A DNA stretch of 64,000 bases from Prevotella sp. GTDB taxonomy: Bacteria > Bacteroidota > Bacteroidia > Bacteroidales > Bacteroidaceae. A model generated the notes under the pieces. The model did no database searches. It was not told the DNA's origin and saw only the letters and a program-made list of their open reading frames with translations. Positions within the stretch are counted from its first letter, which is position 1. Each line of letters begins with the position of its first letter. Shown one piece after another: positions 3,600 through 56,852 of the stretch. Both the position numbers and the translations under genes were made by a program. The stretch spans positions 1-64,000 of the forward strand of contig JAEEWT010000015.1 of NCBI GenBank assembly GCA_016287755.1, given 5' to 3'.

Positions 3600-4845
3600 T
3601 AAAGGATCATCGGAAGGGAACAAGGTGGAACGGTTATGGAATAGGAATTATATCAGGGTGATGACAGCGAATTTCTCGCTGTTCTTTGCTTTCTATCTGC
3701 TCACACCTCTGCTCCCGCTGTATCTGTCGGAAGTGTTCGGCACCAATAAGGATACCATCGGTATTCTCCTTTCCGGCTACATCATCGCTGCCCTTCTGAT
3801 CCGTCCTTTCAGCGGCTTCATCGTGGATACCTTCGACAGGAAGAAGGTGTTGATGATTTGCTTCTTCTTTTTCTTTATCTGCTTTGCGGGATATATAGCA
3901 GCGGGGACATTGCTGATGTTCGCCATAGTAAGAACCGTGCATGGAGCTCCCTTTGGGGCGCTGACCGTGGCCAATAGTACTGTGGCAATTGATGTGCTAC
4001 CATCATCAAGACGCAACGAGGGTATAGGTTACTACGGACTGAGTAACAATCTCGCCATGGCCATCGCACCTTCTATCGGTATCTGGCTCTATCGAGCCTG
4101 TAACAGCTTTGACATCTTGTTCTGGACAGCCTTTCTGGTGGCAGGATTGGGAATGATGGTTGATGCTTCGGTAAGGTTGAGGAAAGCACCACTGAGGGAG
4201 AAAGGTACTGGAATGAGTCAGCGTTTACCCCATCTATCATTCGACCGCTTCTTCCTTACCCGGGCTTGGCTGATGGCGGTGAATATCGCCCTGTTCAGTT
4301 TCTGCTTCGGCGTACTGAGTAACTACCTGGCCATATACAGTAAGCAGGTGTTGCATATCACCACGGGAACGGGAACCTATTTCATGCTCTTGTCGATGGG
4401 CCTGTTCGTCAGTAGGTTGCAAGGTGCTCCCCAATTACGAATGGGTAGGCTAACCCAGAATGCAGCTGGAGGAATCGTGATCTCTTTGGTGGGCTATACC
4501 CTCTTTGCCCTGACTGCCCACATCTCTTCAACCACCCTGATTCCTATATGCTATTACGGCTCGGCCATCCTGATTGGTTTGGGAAACGGACACATGTATC
4601 CTGCTTTCCTGAATATGTTCATCGCCGTGGCCAGAAACGATGAAAGGGGAACGGCTAACTCAAGTATTCTTACAGCATGGGACCTGGGCATGGGCTTCGG
4701 AATCTTACTGGGAGGCGTGGTGTCGGAATATATGGGTTATTCAGCCACGTTCTGGATGGTTGCCCTTGATAATGCTGTTGGTGTGGCGCTCTTTTTCTTG
4801 GCCACAAGACGGTTTTTTGAACAGAGACGTAGAAAGGAACTTTGA
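3580..4845 (+). CDS. MFS transporter
   Basis: About 12 hydrophobic segments; FSGFIVDTFDRKKVL-type MFS loop motif. Confidence 0.85.
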   Translation: MLRNRSDKGSSEGNKVERLWNRNYIRVMTANFSLFFAFYLLTPLLPLYLSEVFGTNKDTIGILLSGYIIAALLIRPFSGFIVDTFDRKKVLMICFFFFFICFAGYIAAGTLLMFAIVRTVHGAPFGALTVANSTVAIDVLPSSRRNEGIGYYGLSNNLAMAIAPSIGIWLYRACNSFDILFWTAFLVAGLGMMVDASVRLRKAPLREKGTGMSQRLPHLSFDRFFLTRAWLMAVNIALFSFCFGVLSNYLAIYSKQVLHITTGTGTYFMLLSMGLFVSRLQGAPQLRMGRLTQNAAGGIVISLVGYTLFALTAHISSTTLIPICYYGSAILIGLGNGHMYPAFLNMFIAVARNDERGTANSSILTAWDLGMGFGILLGGVVSEYMGYSATFWMVALDNAVGVALFFLATRRFFEQRRRKEL

Positions 4846-4870
4846 CTTTGTAGAACTTATGCAACAAAAA

Positions 4871-4906
4871 TTTGTTTTTTCGCTCACTTAATCGTATCTT
4901 TGCAGC
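4871..4906 (+). promoter_or_regulatory. Bacteroidetes-type promoter of ruvB
   Basis: TTTGTTTTTTCGCTCACTTAATCGTATCTTTGCAGC; -33 TTTG and -7 TATCTTTG. Confidence 0.75.
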
Positions 4907-4907
4907 A

Positions 4908-5936
4908 ATGAACGAAGATTTTGACATAAGAAGGGAAATGTCGTCGGCGGAGAAGGATTTTGAAAATGCCCTTCGCCCATTGCGGTTCCATGACTTCAGC
5001 GGACAGAAAAAGGTGGTGGAGAACCTGGAGGTGTTCGTGGAGGCAGCGAAATACCGTGGGGAACCGCTCGACCATACCTTGCTGCACGGTCCGCCAGGAC
5101 TCGGAAAGACAACACTCTCGAACATCATCGCCAATGAACTGGGCGTGGGGTTCAAGATTACCAGCGGACCGGTGTTGGATAAGCCGGGCGACTTAGCTGG
5201 TATCCTTACTTCGTTGGAGCCTAACGATGTGCTGTTCATTGATGAGATACACCGACTGTCGCCTGTGGTAGAGGAGTATCTGTATTCGGCCATGGAAGAC
5301 TACCGTATCGATATCATGATCGATAAGGGTCCTTCGGCACGCAGTATCCAGATCGACCTGAACCCCTTCACTTTGGTGGGAGCCACCACACGAAGCGGTT
5401 TGCTGACAGCCCCACTTCGTGCCCGCTTCGGTATCAACATGCACTTGGAATACTATGAGCCCGAAACGCTGCAGAAGATTGTGAAGCGGTCGGCTTATAT
5501 CCTGAAGGTGCCCATTACCGATGAGGCTTCCATGGAGATTGCCCGTCGTTCACGCGGAACGCCCCGTATTGCCAATGCCCTGTTACGACGTGTTCGCGAC
5601 TTTGCTCAGGTGAAGGGTAATGGAAATATCGACACTAATATTACCAAGATGTCATTAACAGCGCTGAACATCGATCAGTATGGTCTGGATGAGATCGACA
5701 ACAAGATCCTGCTCACCATCATCGATAAGTTCAAAGGCGGTCCAGTGGGTGTAGGCACCATTGCCACGGCCATTGGTGAGGATGCCGGAACCGTGGAGGA
5801 GGTGTATGAGCCGTTCCTGATTATGGAGGGATTCATCAAACGCACACCTCGGGGACGCATGGCTACCGAGCTGGCTTATAAGCACTATGGAAGGAATCCC
5901 TACACAGGGAATATCATGGAACCGGAACTGTTTTAG
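4908..5936 (+). CDS. ruvB: Holliday junction branch migration DNA helicase RuvB
   Basis: [61 protein letters not shown] at 4908. Confidence 0.97.
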
Positions 5937-23457: not shown

Positions 23458-23513
23458 GAATCTTTGTGGAGTGAGGAATGTGGAGTGAGGAGTGAGAATA
23501 CAAAAAAATTATA

Positions 23514-23553
23514 TTTTTGTTTTGTATTTCGCTCACTTATTCGTACCTTTGCA
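23514..23553 (+). promoter_or_regulatory. Promoter module of tRNA-Gln (40 bp identical to the tRNA-Leu module)
   Basis: TTTTTGTTTTGTATTTCGCTCACTTATTCGTACCTTTGCA. Confidence 0.8.
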
Positions 23554-23565
23554 GCCGAATTTGAT

Positions 23566-23636
23566 TGGGTGATGGTGTAATGGTAACACTACAGGTTTTG
23601 GTTCTGTCATTCCCGGTTCGAATCCGAGTCACCCAA
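23566..23636 (+). tRNA. tRNA-Gln (anticodon TTG)
   Basis: TGGGTGA acceptor pairs with TCACCCA; anticodon arm ACAGG-TTTTGGT-TCTGT; T-loop GGTTCGAATCC. Confidence 0.93.
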
Positions 23637-23656
23637 CTCCAGGAAGCTGGATAAAA

Positions 23657-33046: not shown

Positions 33047-34186
33047 TCAGAATGGGGCGAAAGCGTCATCCTGTACGTTCTTGATGGCCATGCACTCCAT
33101 CTCCACGAGCCAGCCTGGACGACAAACGGGTCCGTTCACGAATACCTTCGGTTTATCGGGGAACCGCTCATCGTAGAGAGCCTTTACCGTGCGGTAGTCG
33201 GCCATATCGCGCAGATAGACAATCATCTGCATCACCTCATCATAGGATGAACCTGCTTCCTTCAGCAGCGCCTCCACATTTTCCCACATGTGCTTCGTCT
33301 GTGCAGCCACATCACCTTGGTGAACAATCTCGCCTTTGTTGTTGATGCTTGCCGTACCCGAGATGAACACATGGCGGCGGTCGCCGTAGTTGATATATGT
33401 GCCCCGCTCAAAGCTCACCCCGTAGTCGCTGGTGCGGTTCAGATGATCGGCAGCATACAGGTAGTGTACCTGCTCCTTGCAGATGCCGTCAACCGCATAG
33501 TTATCCATCTGCGAAAGCACATGGGCGTCAGCCTGTCGGCCTCCGATACCCGTACTGGCAATGAAATGGGTCTCGTCGGTAAGGTTCTGCGTGAAGAACA
33601 CCGTGTTGCGGGCCTTCACCACACCAGGATAGTTGTTATCCACATCGTTCACGAAGAACCACGTGCGGATACAGTTGTCAGCCAGACTGCATCCCTCCTG
33701 CATCAACTGCATGATGTATTCGTTGAGCAGCAGACGGGTCTGATACTCCGAGTTTTTAGCCAGGTTATGAGCGCTGGCATTCCACAGATGACGGTAGTTG
33801 CCATGGGTCACCTCATGCAGTCCGCAGTGCAAGGCACGAGTCTCCACATTAGTCTGCAGATACGCCCATACCGCAATCTTCGTTCCATCCAGTGGAGCCT
33901 GCTCGATAATCGACAAGGCATAGTCGGCATAGTCGCACTCCATGGCGAGAATGGCGTCAGCCTGGTTGTATGCATCACTCAGGAAATAGCGTTTGAAAAC
34001 GGTCTTGGCCCCAGGAAGTTCCTCACGCAGCAGCTTGGTATAAGCTTGATCGATGGCTGCCAGTTGTTCGCGATAGGGTAGAGTCCCATCGCTCACATGG
34101 AGCATCACGTGGTATTCCGTAACCTCTGTTCCGTTGTCAAAACAGCTGATTTCAGCATACGCCTGATCAAAGATTTTCTTATTCAT
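33047..34186 (-). CDS. Two-domain Rid/YjgF-fold protein, possibly chorismatase (FkbO/Hyg5)-like
   Basis: YFLSDAYNQADAILAME; TWFFVNDVDNNYPGVVKARNTVFF...HFIASTGIGGR; C-terminal VFISGTASINNKGEIVHQGDVAAQTKHMWENVEALLKEAGSSYDEV; start moved to ATG at 34186. Confidence 0.65.
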   Translation of the reverse strand: MNKKIFDQAYAEISCFDNGTEVTEYHVMLHVSDGTLPYREQLAAIDQAYTKLLREELPGAKTVFKRYFLSDAYNQADAILAMECDYADYALSIIEQAPLDGTKIAVWAYLQTNVETRALHCGLHEVTHGNYRHLWNASAHNLAKNSEYQTRLLLNEYIMQLMQEGCSLADNCIRTWFFVNDVDNNYPGVVKARNTVFFTQNLTDETHFIASTGIGGRQADAHVLSQMDNYAVDGICKEQVHYLYAADHLNRTSDYGVSFERGTYINYGDRRHVFISGTASINNKGEIVHQGDVAAQTKHMWENVEALLKEAGSSYDEVMQMIVYLRDMADYRTVKALYDERFPDKPKVFVNGPVCRPGWLVEMECMAIKNVQDDAFAPF

Positions 34187-34232
34187 GGGTGCAAAAGTAC
34201 TAATAAGTGCGCAAAAAACAAAGAAAAAAAAT

Positions 34233-34263
34233 GTTTTTTCGCTCACTTATTAGTACCTTTGCA
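34233..34263 (+). promoter_or_regulatory. Promoter of the CE6-CE1 esterase gene
   Basis: GTTTTTTCGCTCACTTATTAGTACCTTTGCA. Confidence 0.75.
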
Positions 34264-34279
34264 GAAACATTCATACTAA

Positions 34280-36253
<1,974 letters not shown>

Positions 36254-54274: not shown

Positions 54275-54282
54275 AAGCCTTG

Positions 54283-54364
54283 TACCCAGAGCCGGGGTCG
54301 AACCGGCACGGGTTGCCCCACTGGTGTTTGAGACCAGCGCGTCTACCGATTCCGCCATCTGGGC
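54283..54364 (-). tRNA. tRNA-Leu (anticodon CAA)
   Basis: GCCCAGATGGCGGAATCGGTAGACGCGCTGGTCTCAAACACCAGTGGGGCAACCCGTGCCGGTTCGACCCCGGCTCTGGGT; anticodon arm CTGGT-CTCAAAC-ACCAG; long variable arm. Confidence 0.93.
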
Positions 54365-54375
54365 TTCAATGCGGG

Positions 54376-54415
54376 TGCAAAGGTACGAATAAGTGAGCGA
54401 AATACAAAACAAAAA
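54376..54415 (-). promoter_or_regulatory. Promoter module of tRNA-Leu (40 bp identical to the tRNA-Gln module)
   Basis: Reverse complement reads TTTTTGTTTTGTATTTCGCTCACTTATTCGTACCTTTGCA. Confidence 0.8.
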
Positions 54416-54676
54416 GCGTTTTTTTTTGTTTTTATTTCCGATACGATGGAGCAGCGAATGCCGTCAAACGAGTTTGAATGGCTGAGTCGTGACAGAGTAA
54501 AACGTAGTTAACGGGAGTACTTTCGGCGAAGCCAAAGAACAAATAATCGAGCAAAAAACCGATGCAAACAACCGCTATTTTGCCAAATTTTCTAAAAATC
54601 ATACTTTTTATTTGCCTACTCCACAATAAATGTATATCTTAGTGCCGTTATATACATAGAGTAACCTATCATTATC

Positions 54677-56658: not shown

Positions 56659-56852
56659 AATCTATTTATTTTTAGTTGTTTTCAAAAAGTAAGCAAAATA
56701 GAAAGAATTCCGACTTCCTTTGCCAGAGTCGGAATCCCTTACCTTGTCTAATCTTTAATTATCCGTGGCAAAGTTAGGGATTATTTTCGACACCAACAAA
56801 TATTTTGGAGATAATTTGCTTTTGTTCCCGCTTATTTGTACCTTTGTCCCCA

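Follow-up and report, generated by a model that had tools for sequence, protein, structure and literature searches.

The 40-bp sequence shared by two unrelated tRNA genes of Prevotella sp. is, judging from the sequence, probably one arm of a palindromic mobile cassette, which carries a sigma-ABfr promoter and inserts itself into existing promoters within a clade of rumen Prevotella. The analyzed stretch of 64,000 nucleotides (hereafter the window) belongs to a 3.2-Mb rumen Prevotella genome that is 99.98% complete (G000) and carries about 100 copies of the cassette. Three readings of the shared sequence had been offered in the initial annotation: a transcription-factor site, an extended promoter element, and a mobile promoter cassette. 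Strong support for the last of these comes from sharp-edged copied units, from sites that are filled in one genome and empty in another, from units exchanged in place among close relatives, and from tandem arrays, whereas neither a factor site nor a sigma-recognized spacer is needed to explain why the spacer is shared.

The 40-mer TTTTTGTTTTGTATTTCGCTCACTTATTCGTACCTTTGCA was recovered exactly at 23514-23553 (plus strand) upstream of the tRNA-Gln gene and at 54376-54415 (minus strand) upstream of the tRNA-Leu gene, as originally reported, and ARAGORN and Pfam bore out the identities proposed for the two tRNA genes, ruvB and the esterase gene (Table 1). The variant at the esterase gene was correctly placed at 34233-34263; the variant at ruvB is also present, but the quoted string has 34 nt and spans 4871-4904 instead of ending at 4906. 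The window contains the 24-bp core CGCTCACTTAWTMGTAYCTTTGCA four times without mismatch and once with three mismatches, at 34190-34213 (minus strand); dinucleotide shuffles yield none. A more diverged relative of the core with eight mismatches, TTGTTCCCGCTTATTTGTACCTTTGTC, is located at 56822-56848 (plus strand), just 5' of an ATG. Genome-wide, the core has 95 matches with up to three mismatches against 0 for the reversed pattern. The suspected enrichment upstream of gene starts was also recovered, as 81 of 103 sites are followed by an ATG frame within 150 nt, with a median core-to-ATG distance of 32 nt in the direction of the motif, compared to 24 of 103 in the opposite direction. Two features had been missed, namely the mirror-image promoter at the esterase gene and the palindrome upstream of every core.

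Table 1. Cassettes, promoter boxes and neighboring genes in the window
Feature	Position	Strand	Description
ruvB cassette	4837-4902	+	Remnant of the left box and hairpin (GAACTTTGACTTTGTAGAAC), followed by the short stem AACAAAAATTTGTT
ruvB cassette, spacer core	4881-4894	+	
ruvB cassette, -7 box	4895-4902	+	TATCTTTG
ruvB	4908-5936	+	Pfam
tRNA-Gln cassette, right-hand part	23497-23551	+	Palindrome AATACAAAAAAA..TTTTTGTTTTGTATT; conserved spacer
tRNA-Gln cassette, -33 box	23521-23524	+	TTTG
tRNA-Gln cassette, -7 box	23544-23551	+	TACCTTTG
tRNA-Gln gene	23566-23637	+	ARAGORN; mature 5' end 12 nt past CTTTGCA
Divergent gene	33047-34186	-	C-terminal L-PSP/RidA-like domain; served by the second arm of the palindrome; Pfam
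Symmetric cassette	34190-34263	both	Near-perfect 74-bp palindrome between two divergent genes
Symmetric cassette, outward -7 box	34192-34199	-	TACTTTTG
Symmetric cassette, outward -7 box	34254-34261	+	TACCTTTG
Acetylesterase gene	34292-36253	+	SASA and Esterase domains; Pfam
tRNA-Leu gene	54282-54364	-	Downstream of cassette; ARAGORN
tRNA-Leu long-loop cassette, 155 bp	54378-54532	-	Inner module, stem AAATAAAAACAAAA..TTTTTGTTTTGTATTT
tRNA-Leu cassette, -7 box	54378-54385	-	TACCTTTG
tRNA-Leu cassette, -33 box	54405-54408	-	TTTG
tRNA-Leu cassette, left hairpin	54517-54532	-	GCTTCGCCGAAAGTAC
Putative displaced box	54533-54560	-	Decayed end of an older promoter (TTTTTTGCTCGATTATTTGTTCTTTG), adjoining the tRNA-Leu unit on its left

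The 40-mer and its core are not an isolated spacer motif; they form the right arm of a repeat unit. From left to right, the unit consists of a hairpin GCTTCGCCGAAG, a left arm GGTACTCACGTTCGG, an A/T-rich variable stem-loop, and a right arm TTTTTCGCTCACTTAWTCGTACCTTTG, which by its sequence is a complete sigma-ABfr promoter with the -33 TTTG in the stem and the -7 TAnnTTTG at the extreme end. Over 103 aligned sites, the two boxes are separated by 19 nt (20 nt at ruvB), the spacer CTCRCTTAWTCG is almost fixed, and the upstream region is A/T-rich. The earlier remark that the sigma-ABfr model leaves the spacer unexplained is therefore right for the spacer, whereas the -33 and -7 boxes fit that model exactly. 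The stems vary while the spacer core is nearly invariant, and the core itself contains no dyad. Measured from box to box, the unit is 73 bp long in 13 of 65 cases and 81-84 bp in 41 of 65, and a long-loop version of 150-155 bp also exists. Members of this long-loop subfamily (L049, L013, L023, L007 and the unit at 54378-54532 on the minus strand of the window) contain an inner module, GTCACGACTC..GCTGCTCC or AACAAATGAAATGCAAGCATTTCTTTGTT, within the palindrome. Tandem arrays are repeats of the cassette unit. To look for an autonomous longer form, we matched left ends with right ends across about 1.5 Mb of sequence from G000 and the close relative G202; only 73-84-bp units, 150-155-bp long-loop units, and double units were retrieved. 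Short GTGGAGTGAGGA-type repeats, which resemble an unrelated minisatellite, accompany some units (23474-23498 of the window, L035 and L059).

Symmetric sites, with a promoter in both arms, have a divergent gene nearby in eight of nine cases, compared to 24 of 94 for the other types. The symmetric cassette of the window folds as single-stranded DNA at -22.8 kcal/mol (z -7.5), and the DNA fold of the tRNA-Gln cassette has a z of -3.2. Transcription is predicted to start just after the -7 box/CTTTGCA, a position that agrees with the two tRNA genes and with short leaders. A leader-RNA structure was rejected, because the predicted transcript of each gene begins only downstream of the palindrome and thus does not include it.

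By comparing 136 pairs of sites with unrelated flanks, we observed an identity of ~0.8-0.97 over most of the region from -50 to +20 and of 0.3 from +25; a part of this region served to pick the pairs, while the sharp right edge and the stretch left of -45 did not. The drop in identity falls directly after CTTTGCA, and the similarity on the left side fades over -60 to -90. Homologous promoter sequences are found in this way 5' of non-homologous genes in one genome.

The two arms of individual units are matched to each other. The left arm fits its own right arm with a score of 8.93, compared to 6.78 (sd 0.17, maximum 7.41) for permuted arms in 10,000 permutations, a test that ignores the shared ancestry of units. 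Among 61 non-redundant asymmetric units from two genomes, the column pairs with the highest mutual information mostly show Watson-Crick combinations in a nested arrangement. The highest-ranking pair connects the variable base of the -7 box with a left-arm base located ~60 bp upstream (G-C in 35, A-T in 17 and T-A in 6 of 61 units), and the small left hairpin covaries as well. The six covarying pairs form 40 distinct haplotypes, and each pair type occurs on several to many backgrounds; therefore, the covariation does not go back to just one or two founders. Such covariation can also be produced when imperfect palindromes undergo templated repair. In the pairs L9-R5 and L8-R6, most combinations other than Watson-Crick are C/A or A/C when read on the top strand, which corresponds to G-T on the bottom strand and hints that the bottom strand may be the folding one. 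The conserved unpaired bases (TCAC-like on the left, TTAWTC on the right) would suit recognition of a hairpin better than a promoter-only role, since the left conserved stretch lies far upstream of the boxes. The spacer is probably shared by descent and retained as part of a hairpin recognized for mobility, with a possible additional role in promoter strength.

The units are found at -7 boxes, which are their probable insertion point. New units stand immediately 3' of an existing TAnnTTTG, so that they have a box at either end and the predicted start position does not shift. Of 77 units, 41 have an intact TAnnTTTG immediately on their left, and a further 20 have a one-letter variant there; among the first units, 25 of 34 follow TAnnT[TC]T[GA]. 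The displaced upstream boxes are often mutated (e.g. TACCATTG, TACCTCTG and TACTTTG). A prior -33 box is weakly enriched at first units, with TTG 18-21 nt upstream of the left box in only 7 of 34 cases (7% at random, ~2 expected), and thus the left box may in many cases not derive from a functional promoter.

Whole units are present, absent or exchanged at orthologous genes of related genomes. The genome G202 is a close relative of G000, with 95% identity at ruvB. About half of the 59 orthologous element pairs from these two genomes are at least 0.95 identical, yet 23 of the 59 are below 0.80, although most of the 300-nt stretches downstream of these 23 divergent pairs are 0.93-0.99 identical. 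At 23 of the 59 sites, the ortholog is less similar to the element than some non-orthologous copy. The relatives include metagenome-assembled genomes (MAGs), in which short repeats can be misassembled, while an apparent exchange between intact flanks requires two errors. An automated screen for filled and empty sites proposed 10 candidate events, a list confounded by similarity within the family, and five of them (L019, L043, L048, L049 and L083) were kept after reading by eye. In this small set of gains and losses, the only gain polarized by the outgroup G339 is L019, where an 82-bp unit unlike its neighbor unit is present in G202 and absent in both G000 and G339. With the same outgroup, the gene-proximal unit was lost in one genome at L048 and L043, and further unit differences were observed at L049 and L083. 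The tRNA-Gln gene has three different promoters in three genomes over one and the same TACCTTTG box. The tRNA-Leu gene is preceded by a plain -33/-7 promoter without the core at 27 of 30 congeneric loci, two loci of this set being unreadable or without a recognizable promoter, and the core is present in G000 only. In G202, the region 5' of the divergent neighbor of the esterase gene (L340) contains a ladder-like series of TAnnTTTG boxes, accompanied by partial units such as GTTGTTCTCACTTATTCG, before the gene-proximal unit.

Exact matches of the core were identified in 222 of 398 congeneric genomes, with 0 matches for the reversed control, and none were found in 24 other families of the order. 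Almost all named genomes with the core are Prevotella-type MAGs from the rumen or other ruminant guts, together with the isolates Prevotella sp. tf2-5 and MA2016. The genes that follow the units belong to different Pfam families and are functionally mixed, including tRNAs, rnpB, ruvB, aminoacyl-tRNA synthetases, MatE transporters, and the esterase. Four of 20 downstream or neighboring proteins examined are aminoacyl-tRNA synthetases, and the RNase P RNA also sits downstream of a unit (L024, L026, L038, L045 and L014 for these genes together); there may be a bias towards translation genes. In addition, 16 stretches on IMG/VR contigs classed as viral (L209-L224) hold a cassette unit, often with a left hairpin of another sequence, GACCTGCGGTC, and some have ParA-like, DarB-like and DNA-polymerase exonuclease genes as neighbors. 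The unit may travel on phages or plasmids, and some of these contigs may be host DNA.

In the proposed mode of movement, a unit is copied into an existing promoter at its -7 box, and the new promoter would then take over with an unchanged start site and 5' leader. The displaced older box would decay, and units would be lost again through recombination between the repeated boxes. The palindrome, together with the ability of GGTAC to pair with GTACC in two places, the flanking box and the right end of the unit itself, suggests a folded single-stranded intermediate; our preferred guess is an intermediate like that of IS200/IS605-type elements, handled by a different enzyme. We searched for Y1/RAYT transposases (PF01797) in G000, 150 congeners, and 11 selected genomes, in which the positive controls were found. 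No such protein was detected in the element-rich genomes G000, G202, G032, G027 and G249, while Y1 proteins are present in 87 of the 150 congeners, and no cassette unit was found with the element patterns at the 27 Y1 loci scanned. It can be speculated, as a tentative reading of these sequence features, that the cassettes represent an undescribed class of mobile DNA that targets the host -7 box as a folded hairpin, employs a new enzyme, rebuilds the box and takes over the same start, so that housekeeping promoters of the clade have been repeatedly replaced.

The alternative that best withstands these data concerns the mode of movement and not the identity of the cassette, and we consider it possible but less likely. 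Under this alternative, ectopic gene conversion, template switching, or slippage among the many copies of the -7 box and of the palindrome arms would be enough to spread the units, with no transposase involved. It agrees with the direct box repeats that flank units, with the losses at L048 and L043, which fit box-box recombination, with the absence of Y1 transposases in G000 and G202, and with the frequent in-place exchange. However, a plain promoter offers only ~8-10 bp of homology, the units have discrete lengths (73 and 81-84 bp), and the unit gained at L019 differs from its neighbor, which rules out local slippage alone.

That the spacer is read by a clade-specific sigma-ABfr or RNA polymerase, as an extended promoter element evolved separately at each gene, is improbable. 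The nearly invariant core between variable stems and the canonical -33/-7 spacing would be expected of such an element, but unrelated genes also share tens of bases upstream of any promoter box, the left hairpin and left arm are conserved and covary outside the promoter, and the core is missing from the plain promoters that conserved genes have elsewhere in the genus. A binding site for a transcription factor controlling a regulon is still less probable: a conserved non-promoter core does precede many genes, but it has no dyad of its own, and a regulon was rejected on the functionally mixed set of downstream genes, which differs between close relatives. Neither of these two readings would explain the covarying upstream arm or the left hairpin. 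Equally remote is a classic REP/REPIN element mobilized by a RAYT (Y1 tyrosine) transposase, which the short, palindromic, extragenic and partly tandem units in ~100 copies and the frequent Y1 proteins of congeners would suit, but which is contradicted by the lack of PF01797 where units abound and by the lack of units around Y1 genes.

If the mobile cassette is real, a single promoter would become common to unrelated genes, and the promoter of a given gene would differ among close relatives. In an abundant rumen bacterium, even essential genes (tRNAs, RNase P RNA, ruvB, aminoacyl-tRNA synthetases) would have their promoters swapped between close relatives with the transcript start unchanged, and comparable filled and empty promoters would be available for studying promoter evolution. 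A mobile cassette would also point to an unknown mobilizing enzyme and would account for a 'conserved spacer' that can be mistaken for a regulator binding site.

Several known systems resemble the cassette in part. REPINs are short mobile palindromes (PMC3116915), and REP/REPIN elements with their RAYTs (PMC3116915, PMC2817692) share with the cassette ~100 short palindromic extragenic copies, arrays, and a non-autonomous nature. In contrast to them, the right arm of the cassette is a full promoter, and the Y1/RAYT gene is missing from the element-rich genomes tested, as are units beside the scanned Y1 genes. MITEs, such as those of Porphyromonas gingivalis (PMC4596501), are likewise small and non-autonomous, with inverted arms and a flanking direct repeat; in the cassette, however, the direct repeat is the -7 box within the palindrome, and there is an extra left hairpin. 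A parent IS or a long version of the cassette was not found with the patterns used, although the arms are present.

The single-strand transposons of the IS200/IS605 type have hairpin ends, insert 3' of a short fixed target, and contain internal bases that pair with the target and with their own end. The GGTAC/GTACC pairing of the cassette recalls this pairing of guide and cleavage site, and the units similarly follow a short fixed target, TAnnTTTG, that is kept. The cassette differs from these elements in that G000 has no Y1 HUH transposase, the target is the host -7 box, and the unit carries a host promoter.

The sigma-ABfr promoters of Bacteroidota have TTTG near -33 and TAnnTTTG near -7, 19-20 nt apart (PMC7366714, PMC12632263); the cassette has, in addition, a spacer of fixed sequence and a palindrome further upstream, both restricted to this clade. 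An earlier description of the cassette family, or of promoters targeted by such units, was not found in a search that lacked most subscription journals. Short mobile promoters have been proposed before (Matus-Garcia et al. 2012 NAR; van Passel et al. 2014 Genetics; both as cited in PMC8049555). As characterized in that citing article, the putative mobile promoters are, like the cassette, short promoter-bearing intergenic repeats 5' of non-homologous genes; relative to that account, the cassette is distinguished by its covarying palindrome, its discrete length, an end that is itself the -7 box, and its placement at existing -7 boxes. The cassette is best grouped with these mobile promoters as a variant, and there is a real chance that its way of moving is new.
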